Notes under the pieces: model-generated | Databases searched by the model: none | What the model was told of the DNA's origin: nothing | What the model saw: the letters and a program-made list of their open reading frames with translations, nothing else | Virus record (IMG/VR): IMGVR_UViG_3300046517_001799 | Coordinates: 1-31,052 of that record | Length of the DNA: 31,052 bases | Reading direction: 5' to 3' (one strand) | Source of the DNA: a virus | Made by a program: the position numbers and the translations under genes | In this document: in pieces, positions 11,239 through 30,264 of the stretch | Layout: every line of letters begins with the position of its first letter | Numbering within the stretch: position 1 is the stretch's first letter

Positions 11239-11435
11239 TCCACCTCCACGTGGTCGTAGCGGTAGATCGACAGGTGCTCGCTCTCGTGCACCTGGTCGTA
11301 GATGTAGCGCCGCGGCGAGCCGGGGATCACCGCGGGGATGCTGATCCGGTCCGGCATCGACACGTCGGTGCCCACGTCCACGCTCGCGCCGTCCATCGGG
11401 CCGCCAATGCACTCGACCGTGCGGAGGTGGATCAC
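11235..11435 (-). CDS. Small 'GGPxDG' phage protein after terminase
   Basis: The 66-residue product starts at GTG 11435 (GTGA overlap with terminase) and ends in a GTGA overlap. It reads VIHLRTVECIGGPMDGASVD near the start, then beta-type segments ending RRYIYDQVHESEHLSIYRY. The combination of an early C/L-x-GGPxDG turn and a late HLSIYRY-type strand recurs in many small phage proteins of unknown function. A second, divergent member of the same type may lie at 25861-26046 in this window. No motif indicates activity. Confidence 0.7.
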   Translation of the reverse strand: MIHLRTVECIGGPMDGASVDVGTDVSMPDRISIPAVIPGSPRRYIYDQVHESEHLSIYRYDHVEVE

Positions 11436-12973
11436 GCCGCCACCCACACGCTCGGGGTCGGTGACGCCTCGATCGAGTGCAGGATGTAGCCGAGCGCGTC
11501 GATCCTGTGGTTCGCCGCGTCCACCGGCTTCTCCTTCGGGTCGTCGCTCTGATTCCGGCGATTCTCGGCGAGCTTCTGCCACTGCAGTTTCGCCAGCTCT
11601 CGGGGGAGTGAGCTGGGCTGGCGCTGTGCCACCGCGAGCGGATCCTCGGCCACGAGCAGGCCGGGCTCGATCACCAGCATGTCGCGGTTCAGTGCCGACG
11701 CGATCGCACGGATGCAGGCGCCGATGTCCTTCCGCGCCGGCGTGGAGAAGACACCGTGGCGCGCAAGAGTGGCCGCGTCCTCGGCGTCGTGGTCTGCGAA
11801 GCTCGCGACCACGTTCAGCTCGTTCAGGTACGGCCGGAGCTCGAACGCCTGCTCCGGATCGCCGGAGAGGGCCGGCGCGTCACGGAGTGCTCGCAACTCC
11901 TCGGCCTCGAGCTTCAGGATCTGCTCGGCGTGGTCTTCCACCAGCCGCTCCGACATGCTCCACTCGCGATAGACGTGCCGGCGGCCCGTGGCCGGATCCT
12001 CCGCCACCCACAGGCATACGAACGGGTTCCGGTAGCCGAAGTCGATGCCGCGGTAGCGCGCCCAGTTGGGCGGCGGGTAGTTGTTCCATTTAGACCACGA
12101 CGCGGCCTCGGTCTTCAGGTGCCGCGCCGGGTCGTACATCGGGAACACCAGCCCCTCGGCGCGCGCCCACTTCCCCAGCACCAGGCGGTCGTAGTAGGGC
12201 GTGCCCTTCAAGCTCTCCAGCCGCAGATGATAGTCCGGCGGCAGGTGCTTCTCGTTGTCGTGGAAGCTGGAGAGGATGACCTCGTAGAGCGCGCGGCCTT
12301 CCGCGTCTCGCTCGACGCGCATGCCGCGGTCGGGGTCGAAGTCCTGGGCGATCCAGTGCTCCGAGTCCTCCGGGTTACAGGCGAGGCTCATCTGCCGCGC
12401 TGCGAGGCCCAGCTTCTCCGCACGCGCATTGATCCACGGGTCGTTCTGCCGGAGCCGCGTCTGGGCGAACGTGTAGTGTCGGCGGTCGAGCTGCTCCGCC
12501 TGGTCGATCGCGATCGAGCCGAACTCGGCCGAGAGGTGGCGCGCGGGATCGAGCCAGCCGAAGACGTGGAGCTTCGACTGCCGCACCACGCCGTCATCGC
12601 AGCGCACCTTGGGGCCCGAGAGGATCTGCTTCGACTCCGCCCAGTTGGCGGCGAGGAACTCGCCCGGCACGAACTTCTTGAACTCCTCGAGCGTGGTCGA
12701 CTCCATGCTCCGGGCTTCGAGCCTGGTGAGCGCGATCTTGATCCCGGGGAGCGCGCAGAACTTGACCCACTCGCTCGCGCAGATCACCCAGGTCTTGCCG
12801 CGGCCGACGCGCGAGCTCATCACGCGCACGGGTGCGGTCGAGCGCAGGTAGGTCTCCTGCGCGTAGTTCTCGGGCGCGATCACCTGGTGGGGAGACGAGG
12901 GTGCGGCGTCAGCCATCGTGGCCCACGCTGCCAGCAGCATCCATGCCGCCCATTTCCTGCCGCACCCCGTCAC
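11432..12973 (-). CDS. terL: Terminase large subunit
   Basis: The packaging motor and nuclease, 513 residues from GTG 12973 (GTGA overlap); an internal ATG at 12916 is an alternative start that would remove an odd hydrophobic leader (WAAWMLLAAWATM). The ATPase has Walker A SRVGRGKT at about 54-61 and Walker B IAIDQAE at 154-160 (D157, E160), then SLACNPEDSEHWI. The C-terminal RNase H-like nuclease has acidic residues in RGIDFGYRNP (D311), SFADHDAED (D394) and NHRIDALGY (D492). It is followed by the portal gene and preceded by a probable small subunit. Confidence 0.93.
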   Translation of the reverse strand: MTGCGRKWAAWMLLAAWATMADAAPSSPHQVIAPENYAQETYLRSTAPVRVMSSRVGRGKTWVICASEWVKFCALPGIKIALTRLEARSMESTTLEEFKKFVPGEFLAANWAESKQILSGPKVRCDDGVVRQSKLHVFGWLDPARHLSAEFGSIAIDQAEQLDRRHYTFAQTRLRQNDPWINARAEKLGLAARQMSLACNPEDSEHWIAQDFDPDRGMRVERDAEGRALYEVILSSFHDNEKHLPPDYHLRLESLKGTPYYDRLVLGKWARAEGLVFPMYDPARHLKTEAASWSKWNNYPPPNWARYRGIDFGYRNPFVCLWVAEDPATGRRHVYREWSMSERLVEDHAEQILKLEAEELRALRDAPALSGDPEQAFELRPYLNELNVVASFADHDAEDAATLARHGVFSTPARKDIGACIRAIASALNRDMLVIEPGLLVAEDPLAVAQRQPSSLPRELAKLQWQKLAENRRNQSDDPKEKPVDAANHRIDALGYILHSIEASPTPSVWVAA

Positions 12974-13398
12974 GTATCCGCCGGCCTCTCGAAGTTGCTG
13001 AACCGGACCTCGATCGGTCCCAGATGCTCCGCTCCACTCAGCTGCACCACCTCTGCCCGCGGCAGCCCGCCTCGATCCGCTGCGTAGTTCATCGCGTACT
13101 GCCAGAGCCGCGACCGCTCTTCGTTCAGCGGGATGATCTGCACCCCGTCTCGCGTCTCCACCTCGATCAGCTGCCAGGGCCCGCGGGCGATGATCTCGGT
13201 GATGTCCGCGATGCCGTACTTCGTGATCGCGACCCGGAGCCGGTCGCGGTTGTCTTCCTTCTCGTGCTGGCCGCGGCGCGCCTTGACGCTCGCCTCGGAT
13301 GCCTTCTTCAAGTTCTCGCGCGCCGCCGCCTTCTGCTCCTCGGTGCGCACGTAGCGGCCGCTGCCGCCTGTCCTTGCTGGACCTGGACTCCTCGCCAC
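12970..13398 (-). CDS. Probable terminase small subunit
   Basis: About 142 residues. I prefer GTG 13398, because GAGGTGA lies 5 bases upstream; GTG 13407 is the other candidate and adds three residues. The N-terminal third is basic and helical (EEQKAAARENLKKASEASVK), consistent with DNA recognition. The C-terminal part, LWQYAMNYAADRGGLPRAEV followed by EHLGPIEVRF, resembles the C-terminal end of small terminases, where a similar 'YAxDRxxGxP' segment precedes a beta strand. It directly precedes terL with a GTGA overlap. The same frame stays open for 47 codons upstream to the previous gene but without a normal start. Confidence 0.6.
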   Translation of the reverse strand: MARSPGPARTGGSGRYVRTEEQKAAARENLKKASEASVKARRGQHEKEDNRDRLRVAITKYGIADITEIIARGPWQLIEVETRDGVQIIPLNEERSRLWQYAMNYAADRGGLPRAEVVQLSGAEHLGPIEVRFSNFERPADT

Positions 13399-13548
13399 TG
13401 CTGTCACCTCACGCTTATGCCGAGGGGATCGCTTGCCCCGACTCGCGCTCCCTATCGACGCTCGGCCCGCCGTGTCCTGAAGCGTGGGCTCCCCATTCCC
13501 CGAGGCTTCGCGAAGGAGGTGTGCGCCAGCCGCCGCCCAGGACTCCAG

Positions 13549-13701: not shown

Positions 13702-14349
13702 CTACGGCGCTTCCTGACGCTTCGGATAGACGATCGTGCAGCGAAGCCCCGAATTCTTGGGCGTCGTGCCGCTCACGTCGCCGAAGACGCGAAGGCGGAA
13801 GCGGGGCACGAGCCAGATGTTCGAATTGCCGGGCGTGTCAGGGTCGACCGGGAGCAGCGCCGACCACACGCCGAGCGCTCCGGAGTTGCCCGTGCCCTGC
13901 GGCAGCGCGTAGAGCAGCGTGCCCGAGCCGATCTGGCCGGCGGGGTTGTAGGAGAAGATCGTGTCCGAGACGGCCGAGCCGATGCCGCCAGCGCCGCCGC
14001 CCGCGCTCTGCTCGATCGTGAAGTACACGGTATCCGTGACGCCGTTCGAGACGGGCGCGGTGAAGTACACGCGCGCCGCCCAGGCGCCGGTCGCGACGCC
14101 GCCATTGGCCTGGCCGATCGCAGCCCAGTCCCAGTCGTAGGTGTCGATCGCCTGCGTTCGCGTCGTGTCCGCTTCGTCCGTGAGGAACGTCGTGTCTCCG
14201 GGACTGAGCGGCGAGTTCGCATCGCGCCAGGGGACGAGCTTGTTCGCCATGATCGGGCCGGCCAGCGCCTGCCAGGCGGTGCCACCGACCATCGCGGCGA
14301 TCGAGGCCGCCAGGATTCCCACCGCCAACAGTCGAAGATTCCGCTTCAT
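13702..14349 (-). CDS. Exported protein of unknown function, first gene of the late operon
   Basis: The chosen start is ATG 14349 after GGAGGGCGGAGCGAG; the frame is open 21 codons further. The 215-residue product begins with a clear signal peptide (MKRNLRLLAVGILAASIAAM, predicted cut near ALA/GP at about 31). The mature part is acidic and beta-rich with Gly/Ser/Asn repeats (VSNGVTDTVYFTIEQSAGGG, LYALPQGTGNSGALGVW) and ends VPRFRLRVFGDV then LRCTIVYPKRQEAP. It reads like a small secreted beta-sandwich. An exported protein at the head of a packaging operon is unusual; lysogenic conversion or surface modification are options. I do not recognise a family. Confidence 0.75.
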   Translation of the reverse strand: MKRNLRLLAVGILAASIAAMVGGTAWQALAGPIMANKLVPWRDANSPLSPGDTTFLTDEADTTRTQAIDTYDWDWAAIGQANGGVATGAWAARVYFTAPVSNGVTDTVYFTIEQSAGGGAGGIGSAVSDTIFSYNPAGQIGSGTLLYALPQGTGNSGALGVWSALLPVDPDTPGNSNIWLVPRFRLRVFGDVSGTTPKNSGLRCTIVYPKRQEAP

Positions 14350-14499
14350 CTCGCTCCGCCCTCCGTGGCTCGCGCTGCTGCCGCTCGCGCTCATGTCCCG
14401 CGTGTCTCTCACGCTTCAAGGACGAAGTTCCTGTGGAAGGTCGGTTCGGATTGCAAGCGGATTTTTTCGGGCCCGCGGTGTGGGGCGGTCGGACAGCGA

Positions 14500-14542
14500 C
14501 TCGGACAGCCAGTCCCGGTTTCACCGGGACAGGCTGTCCGAG
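14500..14542. repeat. 19-bp inverted repeat (one mismatch)
   Basis: CTCGGACAGCCAGTCCCGG (14500-14518) faces its complement at 14524-14542 across a 5-base TTTCA spacer, with one mismatch at the central A. Outside it, CGGACA (14490-14495) and TGTCCG (14547-14552) extend the symmetry imperfectly. There is no T-run, so it is not a standard terminator. The arms end in the octamer that makes up the array. Confidence 0.9.
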
Positions 14543-14600
14543 CGCGTGTCCGCCACTCCGCTGGTTGTCCGAGTCGTGGCCGAGTGGAATCGCTGAACAC

Positions 14601-14629
14601 CATTCATATTGTTGTCGCGCATATGAATG
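14601..14629. repeat. AT-rich 9-bp inverted repeat inside the octamer array
   Basis: CATTCATAT (14601-14609) and ATATGAATG (14621-14629) are perfect complements separated by 11 bases. This is an AT-rich island in a very GC-rich genome, placed in the middle of the octamer array. It could be a melting element of an origin, or a protein site. Confidence 0.85.
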
Positions 14630-14658
14630 CGGCACTCGGTCAATCGTCTCGGTCACGT

Positions 14659-14686
14659 CTCGGTCACCGTTTTTCGCGTGACCGAG
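14659..14686. repeat. 9-bp inverted repeat CTCGGTCAC / GTGACCGAG
   Basis: CTCGGTCAC (14659-14667) and GTGACCGAG (14678-14686) are perfect complements with a T-rich 10-base spacer that contains TTTTT. The left arm is also the second unit of the 11-base tandem repeat. Confidence 0.85.
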
Positions 14687-14688
14687 TG

Positions 14689-14725
14689 GCGTCTCGGACA
14701 CGCCGTTTTTCCGTGTCCGAGACGC
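14689..14725. repeat. Perfect 14-bp inverted repeat with T-rich loop
   Basis: GCGTCTCGGACACG (14689-14702) and CGTGTCCGAGACGC (14712-14725) are perfect complements around a 9-base loop containing TTTTT. It directly follows the previous inverted repeat and has the same design with GGACA in place of GGTCA. Confidence 0.9.
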
Positions 14726-14750
14726 GTGACCGTGTCGATTCTCTAACTTA

Positions 14751-14863: not shown

Positions 14864-15232
14864 ATGCATCGACGCACGCTTCCCGTGGTCCTCGCGGCAC
14901 TCGCCTTGGCGCTCGGCGCAGCGCTCGCGGTGCACGCTCAGTCGCCCGGCACGCGGGTCGTTGGCGACGCCCTCGCTGTCTCGGGCGGCCAGCTCTACGA
15001 GATCGACAGCGGCATCGGCTGGACCGCGGTGCACGGGCTACCGATCCCGGCCGACCAGGTCGCAGCAGCGCAGCGTGGCCCATCGCTGGGGCTGGTGCTC
15101 TCGATCATCGACGTGAACGGCAACGGCTGGGCCAACAACGGTGCTGGCTCGTGGACGAGCTACGGTCCGGTTCCCGGCGCGACGCCGGCGCTCAGGCAGT
15201 CGTGGAGCGAGCTCAAGGACCGTTTCAAATAG
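14864..15232 (+). CDS. Small secreted protein, the only plus-strand gene
   Basis: ATG 14864 follows AGGAGGT with 6 bases between, a near-perfect ribosome site; the frame is open upstream but without such a site. The 122-residue product starts with a classic signal peptide (MHRRTLPVVLAALALALGAA, cut predicted after VHA at about 25). The mature domain of about 97 residues contains GDALAVSGGQLYEIDSG, LGLVLSIIDVNGNGWANN and GSWTSYGPVPGATPAL, and ends in a basic helix. It reads divergently from the late operon, across the repeat array, and has its own terminator. This is the layout of an independently expressed moron. I do not recognise a family. Confidence 0.75.
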   Translation: MHRRTLPVVLAALALALGAALAVHAQSPGTRVVGDALAVSGGQLYEIDSGIGWTAVHGLPIPADQVAAAQRGPSLGLVLSIIDVNGNGWANNGAGSWTSYGPVPGATPALRQSWSELKDRFK

Positions 15233-15247: not shown

Positions 15248-15628
15248 TCAAGCCTTGCGCGGCAACGACTTCGGGTCAATGCGCTTGCTGGCCGCCGCTG
15301 CGAGGAGCATTCGAGCGCGGCTCTCGGACTCGGTGCGGCTGCCAGGCTTCGACGCCTTCACGCCCGAATGCTTGATACCCCTGCCGGTGGTCCACGAGCC
15401 ATTGGCGCGCCTGACGGTGGAGTCGCCTGCCGGCATCCACTCGCCCATCTCCGCGACGGTGGGCGCGGCGCAGATGACGAAGAGGTCCGGGCGGGATCCG
15501 GCGAGGAAAACACCATCAGTATCGCGCTCGCGGCCAGTGCACCATTCGAACAGCGTTTCCTGCGGGAACCCGCGCCGCGCCATCCGCTCCGCCTGGATGA
15601 ACGGCGCGACCTGGTCTTCGATACTCAT
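15248..15628 (-). CDS. Unknown protein at the end of the replication operon
   Basis: The 126-residue product starts at ATG 15628 in an ATGA overlap with the helicase stop. The first half contains MARRGFPQETLFEWCTG and LFVICAAPTVAEMGEW, the second half is basic and polar (KASKPGSRTESESRARMLLA). The 'APTVAEMGEW' stretch resembles a short motif seen in unannotated phage proteins, but I know no function for it. It is the last gene of the leftward operon before the convergent terminator. Confidence 0.7.
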   Translation of the reverse strand: MSIEDQVAPFIQAERMARRGFPQETLFEWCTGRERDTDGVFLAGSRPDLFVICAAPTVAEMGEWMPAGDSTVRRANGSWTTGRGIKHSGVKASKPGSRTESESRARMLLAAAASKRIDPKSLPRKA

Positions 15629-17112
15629 GCCTCCTCCCTCATCCTCCACGTCCACACGCGCGGCGAGAGCCTCACGCGCTCGAGCCCGCGCTCCTCGAGC
15701 TTGCCGAGGATGCGACGAGCGCTGCGGATACTGATGCCCGTGGCCTGGGCAACGGACTCGCCGGTAACGCCGTGCGGGTTGTTCTGGGCGAACCCCCAGA
15801 CCGTCTCCATGTTCACGTCCGCGACCTTCTCCGGCGCGCTCACGAGCTGGGTGGGCCCGCCTTCTTCCGGGATCTCGTAGTGAATAGGCTCGGGCTCGCG
15901 GGCGTAGTTGGCCTTGTCGAAGTAGATGGTGCGCATGCGTGACTGGCTGCGGCTGACGGTGATGACCGTGTTGACATCGGTGGTGAAGCGCGTACCGCCG
16001 CGAACGAGCGAGATGCGATCGGTCTTCGAGCGGTCGTCGACCTTCTTCTCGTGGTGGATCAGCATGATGGCGCAGTTGGTGCTGTAGCGCACGTCGTCCA
16101 GGCCGGCGGTCATCTCGGAGATCACCTCGTTCTTTTCCTCGCGGCTGCCCATGCAGCGCGACAGGGCGTCGATGATGACCATGTTCAAGGACAGCGCTTC
16201 GATGGCATGGCGGAGGGCGGTGGTGCCGCGGCGATTAGTGAGGTCCAGGCCGCCGTCGATCTGCTGGCGCGTGAGCCAGTGGAAGGCGCCGCCGTCGCCG
16301 CGGAGGTCCAGGGCCCGGTAGGATTCGAGCAGGGCAGCGCGCTCCTTCGGCACGCGGCCGTCGCCGAAGACCTGGACGCAGCGCTCGAGCCAGCGGAAGT
16401 TATCGAACTCGAGCGCCATGTAGCCGACGCGGGCGGGGAACTGTGAAGTGACGAGTCCCATCCAGCGCTCGCCGCGGGCCATGGCGACGGCGAGCTCGAG
16501 CGCCAGGCGGCTCTTGCCCAGGCCCGGCTGGCCGGCGAAGAGGGCGAGGTCGCCGCCGCAGATCAGGCCATCGCCGAGGAGCGAGACCGGCTCGTTCAGA
16601 TCCTCGGCGGTGATGGCGAGCGAGGCGCCGAAGGCGGCGAGGAGGCCGCGGCGCGAGGCCCCGGCGGTGGAGGCGCCACGGAGCAGCGATGCGAACTCGC
16701 CGGCGGTCGCGGCAGGGTCTTCGGAGCTGCGAGCGGATTCGGCCAGGGCGCGGGCGTGGCCGATCAGCTCGCGCTGGCGTTCGGCGCGGACGATGAGCTC
16801 CGCATGCGCCTCGACGTTGGCGGAGGTGACGGCCTCGTCCATCAGGCCGGCGAGGTAGTCCAGGCCGCCGATGCGTTTCAGGTCGTCGGCGCGCTCGAGC
16901 TCATCGGCGAGCGTGATGAGATCGACCTCGGCGCCGCGGGCGTGGACCGAGAGGATGGCGCCGAAGATGATGGCGTGAGCTGTACGGTGGAAGCTGGAGG
17001 GCCGGAGCAGGCGCTGGGCGGTCGCTATCGCCTCGCGGCCGAGCAGCATGGCGGCGAGGATGGAGCGCTCGGCATGGATGTCCTGCGGCGGGGTGAGGGC
17101 GGTGGTGGTCAC
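15625..17112 (-). CDS. Replicative helicase-like protein: DnaB-type N-terminus, RepA-like ATPase, C-terminal winged helix
   Basis: The 495-residue product starts at GTG 17112 (GTGA overlap). Residues 8-105 (HAERSILAAMLLGREAIATA, GAEVDLITLADELER, GLDYLAGLMDEAVTSANVEA) are a DnaB N-terminal domain. The ATPase that follows is of the RepA/AAA_25 kind: GGDLALFAGQPGLGKSRLAL (Walker A near 195-201) and NMVIIDALSRCMGS (Walker B near 312). The C-terminal 60 residues (PHGVTGESVAQATGISIRSA, RRILGKLEERGLERV) form a winged helix-turn-helix. This would be a replication helicase or initiator with its own DNA-binding domain. It lies in a cluster with methyltransferase, nuclease, SSB and recombinase genes. 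Confidence 0.82.
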   Translation of the reverse strand: MTTTALTPPQDIHAERSILAAMLLGREAIATAQRLLRPSSFHRTAHAIIFGAILSVHARGAEVDLITLADELERADDLKRIGGLDYLAGLMDEAVTSANVEAHAELIVRAERQRELIGHARALAESARSSEDPAATAGEFASLLRGASTAGASRRGLLAAFGASLAITAEDLNEPVSLLGDGLICGGDLALFAGQPGLGKSRLALELAVAMARGERWMGLVTSQFPARVGYMALEFDNFRWLERCVQVFGDGRVPKERAALLESYRALDLRGDGGAFHWLTRQQIDGGLDLTNRRGTTALRHAIEALSLNMVIIDALSRCMGSREEKNEVISEMTAGLDDVRYSTNCAIMLIHHEKKVDDRSKTDRISLVRGGTRFTTDVNTVITVSRSQSRMRTIYFDKANYAREPEPIHYEIPEEGGPTQLVSAPEKVADVNMETVWGFAQNNPHGVTGESVAQATGISIRSARRILGKLEERGLERVRLSPRVWTWRMREEA

Positions 17113-18626: not shown

Positions 18627-19523
18627 CTATCCGCGCGGGTGGTACTTCTTGCGCTCCTCGGCGAGCCGCCGGAGGTCCAGGTGGGTGTAGATCTCGGTGC
18701 TGCGGATGCTGGCGTGGCGCAGGAGCTCCTGGATGACGCGGACGTGGGCGCCGCGCTCCATGAGGTGCGTGGCGAAGCTGTGCCGCAGCATGTGCGGCGT
18801 GAGCTTGGAGAGCCCGGCCTGGGCGCCACGCTCGCCGACCATGCGATGGAGGCCGGCGTACTTGAGCGGTCCACCGAAGACGTTGGCCCAGAGGTGGTCG
18901 TGGCGTTCGCGGGCGATCAGGATCGGCCGGCCGTGCTCGAGATAGGTGCGGAGCGCGTCGGCGGCCGCGTCGCCGTAGCTGACGATGGCTTCGACGTTCC
19001 CCTTGCCACGGACCCTGAACGCCTTCGAGCGCTCGTCCACGTGCTTCATGCGCAGGCCCAGCAGCTCGGCGGCACGCAGGCCCGCGCCGTAGAGGAGCTC
19101 GAGGATGGCGCGGTCGCGGAGCGAGAGCGGGTCTTTTCCGGAGACGGTGTCGATCAGGTTCGCGGCCTGCTCCTGGGTGATGTGTTTCGGCAGCCGCTTG
19201 CCGATCCTGATGGGGATCCGCTTCTCGATCGGGTTGGAGCTGGCGGCGCCTTGAGCGGCGAGCCACTCGTGGAAGCGGCGGATGCCGGTCTGGTGCGATG
19301 CGATGGTGCCCGGGGCGTGGCCGCGGGACTTCAGCGACTGGAGGTAGCGGGCGATCGTGTCGCGTGTTGATTGCGACGGATCGCTCTCGGTGATGTTCAG
19401 GGCCTGCAGGTACATGCTCACGCTCGATGCGTAGATGCGGACGGTGGATTCGGTGACGCCTTCAGCTCTGAGGAAGTGGACGAACTGCTCGAGGAGTCTG
19501 CTGCGCATGGCACTGGGCTCCAT
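18627..19523 (-). CDS. Tyrosine recombinase, XerC/D-like (integrase)
   Basis: From ATG 19523 the protein has 298 residues, the usual XerC/D length; ATG 19508 is possible too (GGAG nine bases upstream). Residues 5-90 are the SAM-like core-binding domain. All catalytic residues are present: R150 (GAGLRAAELL), K174 (RGKGN), H244 and R247 (HMLRHSFATH), H270 (LLRHASI) and Y279 (EIYTHL). It could integrate the phage genome or resolve dimers at a host dif site. It sits inside the replication operon rather than at its edge, and no att site is evident nearby. Confidence 0.92.
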   Translation of the reverse strand: MEPSAMRSRLLEQFVHFLRAEGVTESTVRIYASSVSMYLQALNITESDPSQSTRDTIARYLQSLKSRGHAPGTIASHQTGIRRFHEWLAAQGAASSNPIEKRIPIRIGKRLPKHITQEQAANLIDTVSGKDPLSLRDRAILELLYGAGLRAAELLGLRMKHVDERSKAFRVRGKGNVEAIVSYGDAAADALRTYLEHGRPILIARERHDHLWANVFGGPLKYAGLHRMVGERGAQAGLSKLTPHMLRHSFATHLMERGAHVRVIQELLRHASIRSTEIYTHLDLRRLAEERKKYHPRG

Positions 19524-19554
19524 CGGGCGTGTTCCTGAGCCCTGTCCGTAGGGG

Positions 19555-19803
19555 TCAGCCGGCGCGCATCCAGTGGAGGATGAGGGCCTCTCGTTCGGGG
19601 ATTGTTGGCTTGTCGGGTAGCGGCGCCTTCTGCTTGAGTGAGACGAGCCGCTCACGTTGCTTTTGTGCACGCTCACGCTCCAGGCGGTCATTGACCGCAG
19701 CGCGGCAGCGCGGGCATTTGTCGAACGGATGGCCGCGACGGCGCCAGAAGCGGCGCGTGCAGCCGGGCGTGTTGCAGGCGAGAAGCTGCCGCGGGGATCT
19801 CAT
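19555..19803 (-). CDS. Small zinc-finger protein
   Basis: The 82-residue product starts at ATG 19803 (ATGA overlap). CNTPGC near residue 10 and CPRC near 30 form a four-Cys zinc ribbon with a basic loop between them (TRRFWRRRGHPFDK). A long charged helix follows (RLERERAQKQRERLVSL), then an acidic/hydrophobic end. DNA or RNA binding is plausible. No specific family is recognised. Confidence 0.7.
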   Translation of the reverse strand: MRSPRQLLACNTPGCTRRFWRRRGHPFDKCPRCRAAVNDRLERERAQKQRERLVSLKQKAPLPDKPTIPEREALILHWMRAG

Positions 19804-25313: not shown

Positions 25314-25383
25314 GGTCGCACTCCTTGGTTGTGACCGTGGAGTGCAGACTGCAAGGCCGAGCGTCTAAGTCGTTATGAAATAG

Positions 25384-25399
25384 AGTCAAGAATCTTGAC
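25384..25399 (-). promoter_or_regulatory. Palindromic operator candidate over a -35 element
   Basis: GTCAAGAATCTTGAC (25385-25399) is a perfect 15-base palindrome with a single central base. On the leftward strand it ends in TTGACT (25389-25384), a strong -35. The matching -10 (TAGACG, 16 bases on) is weak. The arrangement is that of a repressible early promoter for the gene at 25313. The XRE protein encoded at 26360 is the obvious candidate binder, but this is inferred. Confidence 0.5.
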
Positions 25400-25434
25400 A
25401 GAAACTCGACTCCGGAGACCTAGAACGCTGCGTC

Positions 25435-28827: not shown

Positions 28828-29072
28828 CGCTTCGGCTTCTCCACCCAGTAGACCGGCGCCTGGTACTCGCGCCCGAGCAGGTTCGTGACGGTCCGCTGGC
28901 CGACGCGGAGCCAGCCGAGCGCGCGCGCCTTGTGCAGCATGGCGAGCGCCGTCTTCGGCGTCCGCTTCATCCGCTCGGCCCACTCGTTGACGGTGAAGCC
29001 CCTGTCGCTCTTCTTCGAGAGCTTCGCGAGCTCGTTCAGCCACTCGTCCACCTTGATCGTCGGGGCCATCAT
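28824..29072 (-). CDS. Small winged helix-turn-helix protein
   Basis: Start ATG 29072 (or 29069) follows GGGAGGG and overlaps the upstream stop; 82 residues. The sequence VDEWLNELAKLSKKSDRGFT, VNEWAERMKRTPKTALAMLH and ARALGWLRVGQRTVTN has the helix-turn-helix plus wing pattern of MarR/GntR-like DNA-binding domains. It lies between an enzyme and a virion gene, so a late-gene regulator is possible. Confidence 0.65.
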   Translation of the reverse strand: MMAPTIKVDEWLNELAKLSKKSDRGFTVNEWAERMKRTPKTALAMLHKARALGWLRVGQRTVTNLLGREYQAPVYWVEKPKR

Positions 29073-29908
29073 CCCTCCCTGGACCGTTCCAGACGCCACG
29101 TCTTGCGGCGCACGTAGAGCTCCTCGTCACCCTTGCGGATCAGGATCCCGCCGAACTGCGGCTGCGAGAGCCGCGCGCCCGGGATCTTCCAGGTGAACGG
29201 CGTCTTCGCTTGCCAGCCGGGCGTGACGACGGCCATGTAGTAGCCCTCGTCGCCGTCGATCTCGACGCGCAGGCCACGATGCCGGTGCGAGCGCACGATC
29301 ACCTGCGGCGGCTCATCACCCCAGCGCCCGGCCTCGACGAAGCTCTCGGTCAGCTCCTTGTGCACCGCGGTCGCTTCGTAGGCGGCGCTGCCGGTGGTGC
29401 CGATGTGGTGCAGGAAGTGACAGAGGTGGCCGCCGATCCGGAGCCACAGCTCCCAGCGCGCGTGCTGGCCGTCCTCGTTGGGAATCGCGCCCAAGAGCTT
29501 CGCCGCCCGCTCCTCGTGCTGCGCGGACGGGCCGACGTGCGCCTCGGTGCCGCGGACCTCGTAGAACGCCTCGGCCTTCGCCACCTCGGGCGCCATGATG
29601 CCGACGAACCCGTTCACCTGGTCGCCGATGTTGTGGCTGATCTGCGTGACCGCGCCGTGGTGGATGCCCTCGATGCCGTCGCCGTTATGGATGATGACGT
29701 AGGGCTCACCCTTCGTGACCCGCGGCACCCACTCGTCCCAGAACTCGCGCCACATCGCCCAGGTCTTCTGCTGGATGCGGCTGGGCGCGTAGCGGCCACC
29801 ATCATCGAGCGCGAAGCCCTCCGGCGGGCAGAGCCCGAGCCGGCAGCCGACGTGCGTGTCGCTGACGATGATCGCCTGCTGACAGTGGTCGCGGCGCCTG
29901 CGTCTCAA
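29069..29908 (-). CDS. Metallophosphoesterase (calcineurin-like)
   Basis: The best start is TTG 29908 in a TTGA overlap; 279 residues. Metal ligands are visible in order: IVSDTHVG (D17, H19), YVIIHNGDGIEG (the GD and N), GTEAHVG (GxxxH) and VIVRSHRHRG (GxH-like RSHRH). This is a complete calcineurin-type dinuclear metal centre. Phage enzymes of the family act on phosphoproteins, cyclic nucleotides or nucleic-acid ends. The gene follows an HExxH protease and precedes a winged-helix gene. The substrate is unknown. Confidence 0.85.
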   Translation of the reverse strand: MRRRRRDHCQQAIIVSDTHVGCRLGLCPPEGFALDDGGRYAPSRIQQKTWAMWREFWDEWVPRVTKGEPYVIIHNGDGIEGIHHGAVTQISHNIGDQVNGFVGIMAPEVAKAEAFYEVRGTEAHVGPSAQHEERAAKLLGAIPNEDGQHARWELWLRIGGHLCHFLHHIGTTGSAAYEATAVHKELTESFVEAGRWGDEPPQVIVRSHRHRGLRVEIDGDEGYYMAVVTPGWQAKTPFTWKIPGARLSQPQFGGILIRKGDEELYVRRKTWRLERSREG

Positions 29909-30264
29909 GCAGCCTCCCCCTTCAAGTGTTCGCTGATGGCACGGCGCCACCAGCGCACGCGCGCGCGGTCCGTGTTGATCCGCGCCATGAGCTCCTGCTC
30001 CATCGCCACGACGAAGGTCTCCTCGAACCCGCCCCAGCCGTAGAGCTTCCGCGCGTAGCAGGCGTGGATGAGCTCGTGGACCGTGCTCTCGATGTGGCCC
30101 CCCCTGAACGCGTCGACCACGATCAGGATCTCGCCGTTGTCGTAGTCGACCCACGCCATGACCGGCCCGTTCAACTCGCGCTCCTCGATGCGGAGCTTCG
30201 GGGAGCGCATGAGCTTCCGGAGGTCACGCTCGAGCGCGGCTACCGACCGGGGCGGCTGGGGCAT
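29905..30264 (-). CDS. HExxH zinc metalloprotease-like protein
   Basis: ATG 30264 shares one base with the upstream stop (TGATG); 119 residues. The motif TVHELIHACYARKLYG gives H63, E64 and H67, and GGFEETFVVAMEQEL offers E81 or E82 as third ligand, as in SprT/ImmA-like gluzincin-type peptidases. The N-terminal half is a strand region (PVMAWVDYDNGEILIVVDAF). Possible targets are a repressor, a host factor or a virion protein; none can be read from the sequence. Confidence 0.75.
   Translation of the reverse strand: MPQPPRSVAALERDLRKLMRSPKLRIEERELNGPVMAWVDYDNGEILIVVDAFRGGHIESTVHELIHACYARKLYGWGGFEETFVVAMEQELMARINTDRARVRWWRRAISEHLKGEAA

Follow-up and report, generated by a model that had tools for sequence, protein, structure and literature searches.

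A dense array of short repeats in an intergenic gap of a temperate phage genome fragment is probably an iteron-type replication origin, read by the C-terminal domain of the phage's own DnaB-like helicase, as judged from sequence comparison, a structural model and analogy with known systems. The array lies near the gene of a helicase with a predicted winged helix, and in relatives its layout is conserved while its motif has changed. Arrays of this kind recur at helicase 3′ ends in other phages, and in one near-identical pair the array and the helicase C-terminus have changed together.

The window analysed here is a 31,052-base virus record, identified by gene content as a fragment of a temperate siphovirus. 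It encodes tape measure, tail, head, portal and TerL proteins, a DnaB-like helicase, a methyltransferase, RusA, a tyrosine integrase, SSB and an M15 peptidase. The array gap separates the replication genes from the structural operon (Table 1). An earlier note on this DNA had placed the array where transcription diverges; this is correct locally, owing to one small plus-strand gene for whose product no relatives were found, but the flanking helicase, integrase and structural genes all lie on the minus strand. No near DNA relatives of the window were found in INPHARED, searches of the window with Rfam and for tRNAs matched nothing, and the exact array string was not found in viral contigs. Genome scans for a host identified none and gave a single weak match, to a Bacilli MAG. 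Elsewhere in the window, a second gene-poor stretch (25363-25414) holds the peak AT content (68% in 40 nt). The product of 29069-30154 had no family match; compared with G005 it shows 84% identity over the C-terminal 282 aa, well above the 59-67% of the head and portal proteins.

Table 1. Features of the window that bear on the proposed origin (near, near copy of the octamer;., no strand assigned).
Feature	Position	Strand	Remarks
terL	11432-12973		after terS in structural operon
terS	12970-13407		after exported protein gene in structural operon
Exported protein gene, head of structural operon	13705..14349	-	array flank kept in relatives
CTTGCAATC	14449..14457	-	between array and exported gene; identical in window, L022, L002 and L001
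Iteron array, proposed replication origin	14488..14734	.	from octamer counts, repeat scoring and comparison with relatives
Octamers, first set	14488 + (near), 14500 +, 14535 -, 14547 - (near), 14566 -, 14577 - (near)		
Long terminal hairpin	14490..14552	.	30 bp arms, 83%; core 14500-14542
Spacer between site sets	14587..14634	.	holds AT-rich inverted repeat; candidate melting zone
AT-rich inverted repeat CATTCATAT/ATATGAATG	14601-14629		in spacer
Octamers, second set	14635 +, 14648 +, 14659 +, 14679 -, 14693 +, 14714 -, 14727 - (near)		
Hairpin, exact 9-bp arms, T-rich loop	14659..14686	.	arms 14659-14667/14678-14686
Hairpin, exact 14-bp arms, T-rich loop	14689..14725	.	arms 14689-14702/14712-14725
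Small predicted exported protein	14864..15232	+	between helicase and array; outside proposed origin
DnaB-like replicative helicase	15625..17112	-	DnaB N domain, RecA-like AAA_25 core (Pfam), C-terminal winged helix; proposed reader and loader
C-terminal winged-helix domain, residues 430-491	15640..15825	-	predicted structure; proposed iteron-binding domain
Tyrosine integrase	18627-19691		

The octamer CTCGGWCA occurs exactly 14 times in the window against 3.9 expected, a count reached by none of 100 dinucleotide-preserving shuffles. Nine of these copies fall within 222 bp (14500-14721) and are accompanied by three to four near copies, whereas the other five are scattered at chance level; likewise, 12 of the 64 CGGWCA hexamers fall inside 243 bp. 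Scored for clustered short repeats, the array gap ranks first in the contig (25; runner-up elsewhere, 12), and there is no second CTCGGWCA cluster in the 31-kb fragment. The genome-wide count called for in the earlier note thus gives a clustered rather than an even distribution, and its description of nine exact octamers with near copies holds.

The nested hairpins and the 11-base tandem repeat (CGTCTCGGTCA, at 14645 and 14656) were likewise recovered by a repeat search. Octamers sit in the arms of the long hairpin, the core of which has 20-bp arms with one mismatch and a 3-nt loop; among near-perfect inverted repeats across the contig this core ranks best, and the hairpin with 14-bp arms ties for second. 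The inner stem of the long hairpin is CCCGG(T)/(A)CCGGG, and its counterpart in relatives has a different inner stem. The T-rich CCGTTTTTC loops of the other two hairpins match each other (14667 and 14703). Compared with shuffled sequences, DNA folding gave z scores of -7.3 for 14485-14580 and -8.0 for 14630-14745. Between the two sets of sites, AT content reaches 57% against a genome average of 32%; the spacer is only mildly AT-rich and is not where AT content peaks in the window.

Relatives (L002, L021, L022 and L023) came from TerL searches, at 61-62% identity. The order helicase, array, exported gene, TerS, TerL is common to the window, G005/L022 and L023, with the helicases of L022 and L023 54% identical to that of the window; in L002 the gap, the array and the genes downstream of it are likewise present, on a contig cut before the helicase. 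In G005/L022, L023 and L002 the array upstream of the structural operon is built not from CTCGGWCA but from GTCACGGACA, with the variants GTCGCGGACA and GTCACGGCCA. Its layout is that of the window: in one reading direction, four sites, three reversed sites, a site-to-site spacer of 54-56 bp, four sites and one reversed site, seven plus five sites around the spacer. In the window, one site of the first group of four has the opposite orientation, and two sites of the second such group do not reach the octamer threshold. When each array was searched with its own octamer, allowing one mismatch, 9 of the 12 sites were in register (strand, and spacing within 3 bp), an agreement found in 0 of 3000 shuffles of intervals and strands and in 0 of 3000 random placements. 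These comparisons indicate that the layout is old and that the motif changed in all copies together, as would be expected if a single protein reads the array and co-evolves with it. The paired change in hairpin arms, noted earlier as duplication followed by change, is best explained in the same way, by a joint shift of all copies that keeps pace with their reader. Comparison of homologous gaps therefore revealed conservation of array, layout and hairpins but not of the motif, and the earlier proposal that an unconserved motif would refute a function would mislead, because the motif changes while the rest persists. In L001, L003 and L021 the left contig end falls inside or close to the array or the exported gene, where hairpins may break assembly; in the L003 contig no helicase homologue was detected, and an SSB-like gene is present.

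The C-terminal domain of the window helicase was modelled as a winged helix with a pLDDT of about 90. The full-length AlphaFold model was weak overall (pLDDT 61), and the C-terminal fold alone was used. In Foldseek searches this domain matched mostly winged-helix DNA-binding regulators, and the best matches of the helicase were DnaB structures. Among the relatives' helicases, Pfam placed HTH_11 above cut-off in G005 and HTH_DeoR in L040. Structure prediction covered the window protein; for L119, L099, L100, G041, G034, G083 and G060 the winged helix is read from sequence or assumed. The presumed recognition helices of the window (SIRSARRIL) and L022 (SVRSVRRHL) are similar, as are the motifs (TCxCGGxCA core), whereas both the helix (VSEQTIRDDM) and the motif (ACGAACAAAG) of L040 are unlike these. 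This parallel variation of helix and motif across the window, L022 and L040 is suggestive. A Pfam scan of the helicase revealed no primase domain, and no initiator family match was found beside it, its neighbours matching a methyltransferase, RusA and integrase.

Arrays also occur at helicase 3′ ends in further phages. In L040 (portal 43% identity) the helicase is followed by a ACGAACAAAG array with a long GC hairpin, and then by the exported gene, TerS and TerL. Further helicases were collected by a wider TerL search and then a Pfam AAA_25 search over those records, and their 3′-end arrays have motifs of their own: GGTGCTTCC in L119, TACCA in L099, AAACCGGT in L100, AGGGGAAA in G041, CGTTCCCC in G034, TTCCCGG/GGAAACC in G083 and CCAACTC in G060. 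The helicase 3′ end holds the contig's strongest cluster of short repeats in both orientations in L040, L119, L099, L100, G041, G034 and G083. Nowhere else in the contig scores as high in the window, G005, L040, L119, L099, L100 and G041; in G034 and G083 the top cluster is inside the 3′ coding end, and 'far' windows with higher or equal scores peak in that same cluster. In G060, 8 of the 11 copies of CCAACTC in the contig lie in the 330 bp after the helicase, forming a mainly direct array below the 8-mer detector. The array is adjacent to the helicase in L040, L119, L100 and G041 and starts about 0.25 kb past the stop codon in G005 and 0.9 kb past it in the window, where two small genes intervene; because of the small genes, the zone searched after the stop codon was enlarged to 1.3 kb in these two contigs. 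In L022, L002, L040 and L119 the best hairpins lie within the array, and in L099 the second best does. G005, L040, G041, G034, G083 and G060 were picked by homology or Pfam AAA_25, while L119, L099 and L100 were noticed via their repeats and so are not independent of the detector. Closeness to the terminase is partly by construction, because all the other loci were found through structural genes. The DnaB-like helicases of the Arthrobacter phages ArV2, MrSmee and Pitbull, which are 407-442 aa long against 479-495 aa, have no array, and in Pitbull the gene beside the helicase is annotated as a separate initiator.

Several other repeats were set aside. G013 was left out of the count as its protein matches FtsK/SpoIIIE better than AAA_25; this FtsK/SpoIIIE-like motor gene (L132 / G013, 34477-37932) has a CCGAAACC-type repeat array directly after its stop codon, an arrangement that we take to be reminiscent of actinomycete TraB/clt. 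The repeats of L013 are unrelated tandem repeats, and those of L056, L114 and L108 are coding-like or not beside a helicase. L054 has a series of five units in tandem at 2256-2650, each roughly 70-95 bp long (TGTCAA ... TTATCAA ... TGCAACCC), which precedes a plus-strand gene and looks like a structured repeat family. L118 (4070-4450) has hairpin-forming GAGAATCTCTTCAGGTG repeat units, partly in an ORF ahead of TerL.

The proposed reader and the array can change jointly. The helicases of G034 and G083 are 95% identical over residues 1-440, but identity drops to 48% in the C-terminal domain (481-545), and the two arrays are different. Part of this 3′ region encodes protein and array at once, such that changes in the array carry over into the protein tail beyond residue 545; residues 481-545 themselves come before the bulk of the repeats. 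L099 and L100 have 4094 bp in common at 100% identity through TerS-TerL, while upstream the helicase C-terminus and adjacent array differ. L099 retains a relic copy of the L100 array, which is included in its repeat score, its own TACCA array being smaller (4 + 2 copies); L099 is possibly a chimeric assembly.

Coding-strand GC skew at 4-fold sites was -0.35 in the early and +0.05 in the late genes of the window, -0.34 and +0.02 in G005, and -0.43 in the helicase against about +0.1 in the portal gene of L040. In these three the sign changes across the gap although the flanking genes share one strand, and the cumulative skew has its minimum near the gap; in the window the skew decays within 6-8 kb. 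The inflection that the earlier note proposed as a check is present in the close family, but no skew switch was found at the array in the distant contigs G041, G034, G083 and G060. GC skew was accordingly rejected as a general origin marker, and supports an origin in the close family only.

Of the three functions proposed earlier, an iteron origin is favoured by the comparative evidence, while an operator or a partition centre gains little support. A multi-site operator, at which a phage repressor or late activator would bind the octamers and control the structural operon and the small divergent gene, is unlikely. The array does lie just upstream of the structural operon, the promoter-like CTTGCAATC is invariant in relatives and may be a promoter or other control element of that operon, and clustered inverted sites are common among phage regulators. 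However, 12-13 sites over 245 bp with multi-layer hairpins exceed the needs of most operators, and the arrays track helicase genes despite different downstream genes in L119, L100, G041, G034 and G083. Neither the XRE protein suggested earlier nor another regulator was found among the ORFs scanned, a subset of all ORFs, and a stoperator-like role fits poorly with sites that are concentrated in a single gap instead of genome-wide. A dual role in origin function and autoregulation is possible. It is very improbable that the hairpins act in a transcript, as a structured RNA or as a terminator or attenuator. They are very stable, the last could end the helicase transcript, and pRN1 too has a terminator at that place; yet there is no Rfam match, no U-run follows the hairpins, the T-rich loops of the window and L022 are on opposite strands relative to the operon, and sites in both orientations also occur outside the hairpins.

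That the small terminase subunit recognises the array as a packaging (pac/cos) site has a slimmer chance again. Such a site would account for an array about 1.1 kb upstream of terS/terL and for the contigs of L001, L002, L003 and L021 that end near it, but these ends scatter over hundreds of bases, and hairpins are places where contigs would be expected to end. Moreover, L099 and L100 have different arrays beside their helicases despite identical TerS and TerL, and in G041 the helicase and array are >25 kb from the terminase locus. Slimmest of all is the chance of a partition or incompatibility centre serving a plasmid-like prophage state: multiple inverted repeats can be parS- or inc-like, but the phage encodes a tyrosine integrase, and those ORFs that were scanned with PHROGs and Pfam gave no match to ParA/ParB, in what is possibly an incomplete fragment.

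Taken together, the comparisons argue for an iteron origin and lend good support to the earlier suggestion that the helicase C-terminal domain is the binder; binding, melting, loading and origin activity are what we infer from them. To the C-terminal winged helix the octamers would present about 12 half-sites for binding, one group on each side of the AT-rich spacer. Many bound copies could then position the helicase and help to open the spacer or extrude the hairpins, and the helicase ring would load without a separate initiator gene. More broadly, and with somewhat less than even confidence, we propose that many temperate phages carry a DnaB-type helicase with its own origin-recognition domain, dispensing with a separate initiator or even a loader, and that its fast-changing winged helix and the neighbouring iterons form a specificity cassette whose parts co-evolve and are swapped. 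Most uncultured phages have no known origin, and a simple rule for finding origins would be to take the strongest cluster of inverted and direct short repeats at the 3′ end of a RecA/DnaB-type helicase gene with a C-terminal winged helix. The natural reader-site pairs could also be used to decode winged-helix specificity. If the model is correct, origin recognition would be a fast-evolving and perhaps attacked part of phage genomes, cf. PLE/ICP1.

The closest parallel is found in SaPI/PICI elements, in which short iterons immediately 3′ of the gene for an initiator helicase are recognised by the C-terminal domain of that helicase (PMC7581432) and origins always have two iteron sets around an AT-rich region (PMC6092414). 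Here too the array is 3′ of the helicase gene and the sites form two sets around a spacer, although this spacer is not the strongest AT peak. SaPI/PICI Reps are DUF927 or D5/Primase_Cterm proteins rather than Pfam DnaB N plus AAA_25, and the elements are satellite islands, whereas the window has a full phage gene set (portal, major head protein, TerL and tail genes). By analogy, the system appears to work like a SaPI/PICI Rep-ori, yet it is not a member because helicase family and kind of element differ.

As in known helicase-fused initiators, the helicase carries its own DNA-binding domain, the predicted C-terminal winged helix. P4 replication needs two sites, ori and crr. In P4 alpha, which carries a Toprim primase, the replicative helicase has a fused winged-helix domain, and this domain binds origin repeats (PMC4234260). 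Here a helicase-fused winged helix likewise lies beside repeats that it is proposed to bind, but the helicase lacks a primase domain and the fragment holds one cluster. The pRN1 origin is a large stem-loop just 3′ of rep, whose product ends in a winged helix, and stem-loops of this type are conserved in structure and not in sequence (PMC4234260); pRN1 differs in its prim-pol and SF3 helicase and has no iterons. In the PLE RepA-ori of Vibrio cholerae, the initiator's DNA-binding region and the origin iterons covary, and modules are exchanged (PMC8263062), a covariation resembling that proposed here, although RepA is a separate initiator with no helicase fusion. Lambda O and P22-type systems have a separate initiator gene with internal iterons, whereas the present array is intergenic. 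Within the partial literature covered, we found no account of iterons beside a DnaB-type phage helicase that has an origin-binding winged helix of its own, which is weak evidence of novelty. The layout is known from other helicase families, and its basis in a DnaB-type helicase would be the new element here, extending the plan of a self-loading helicase, if true, from SF3-type Reps to the DnaB class.
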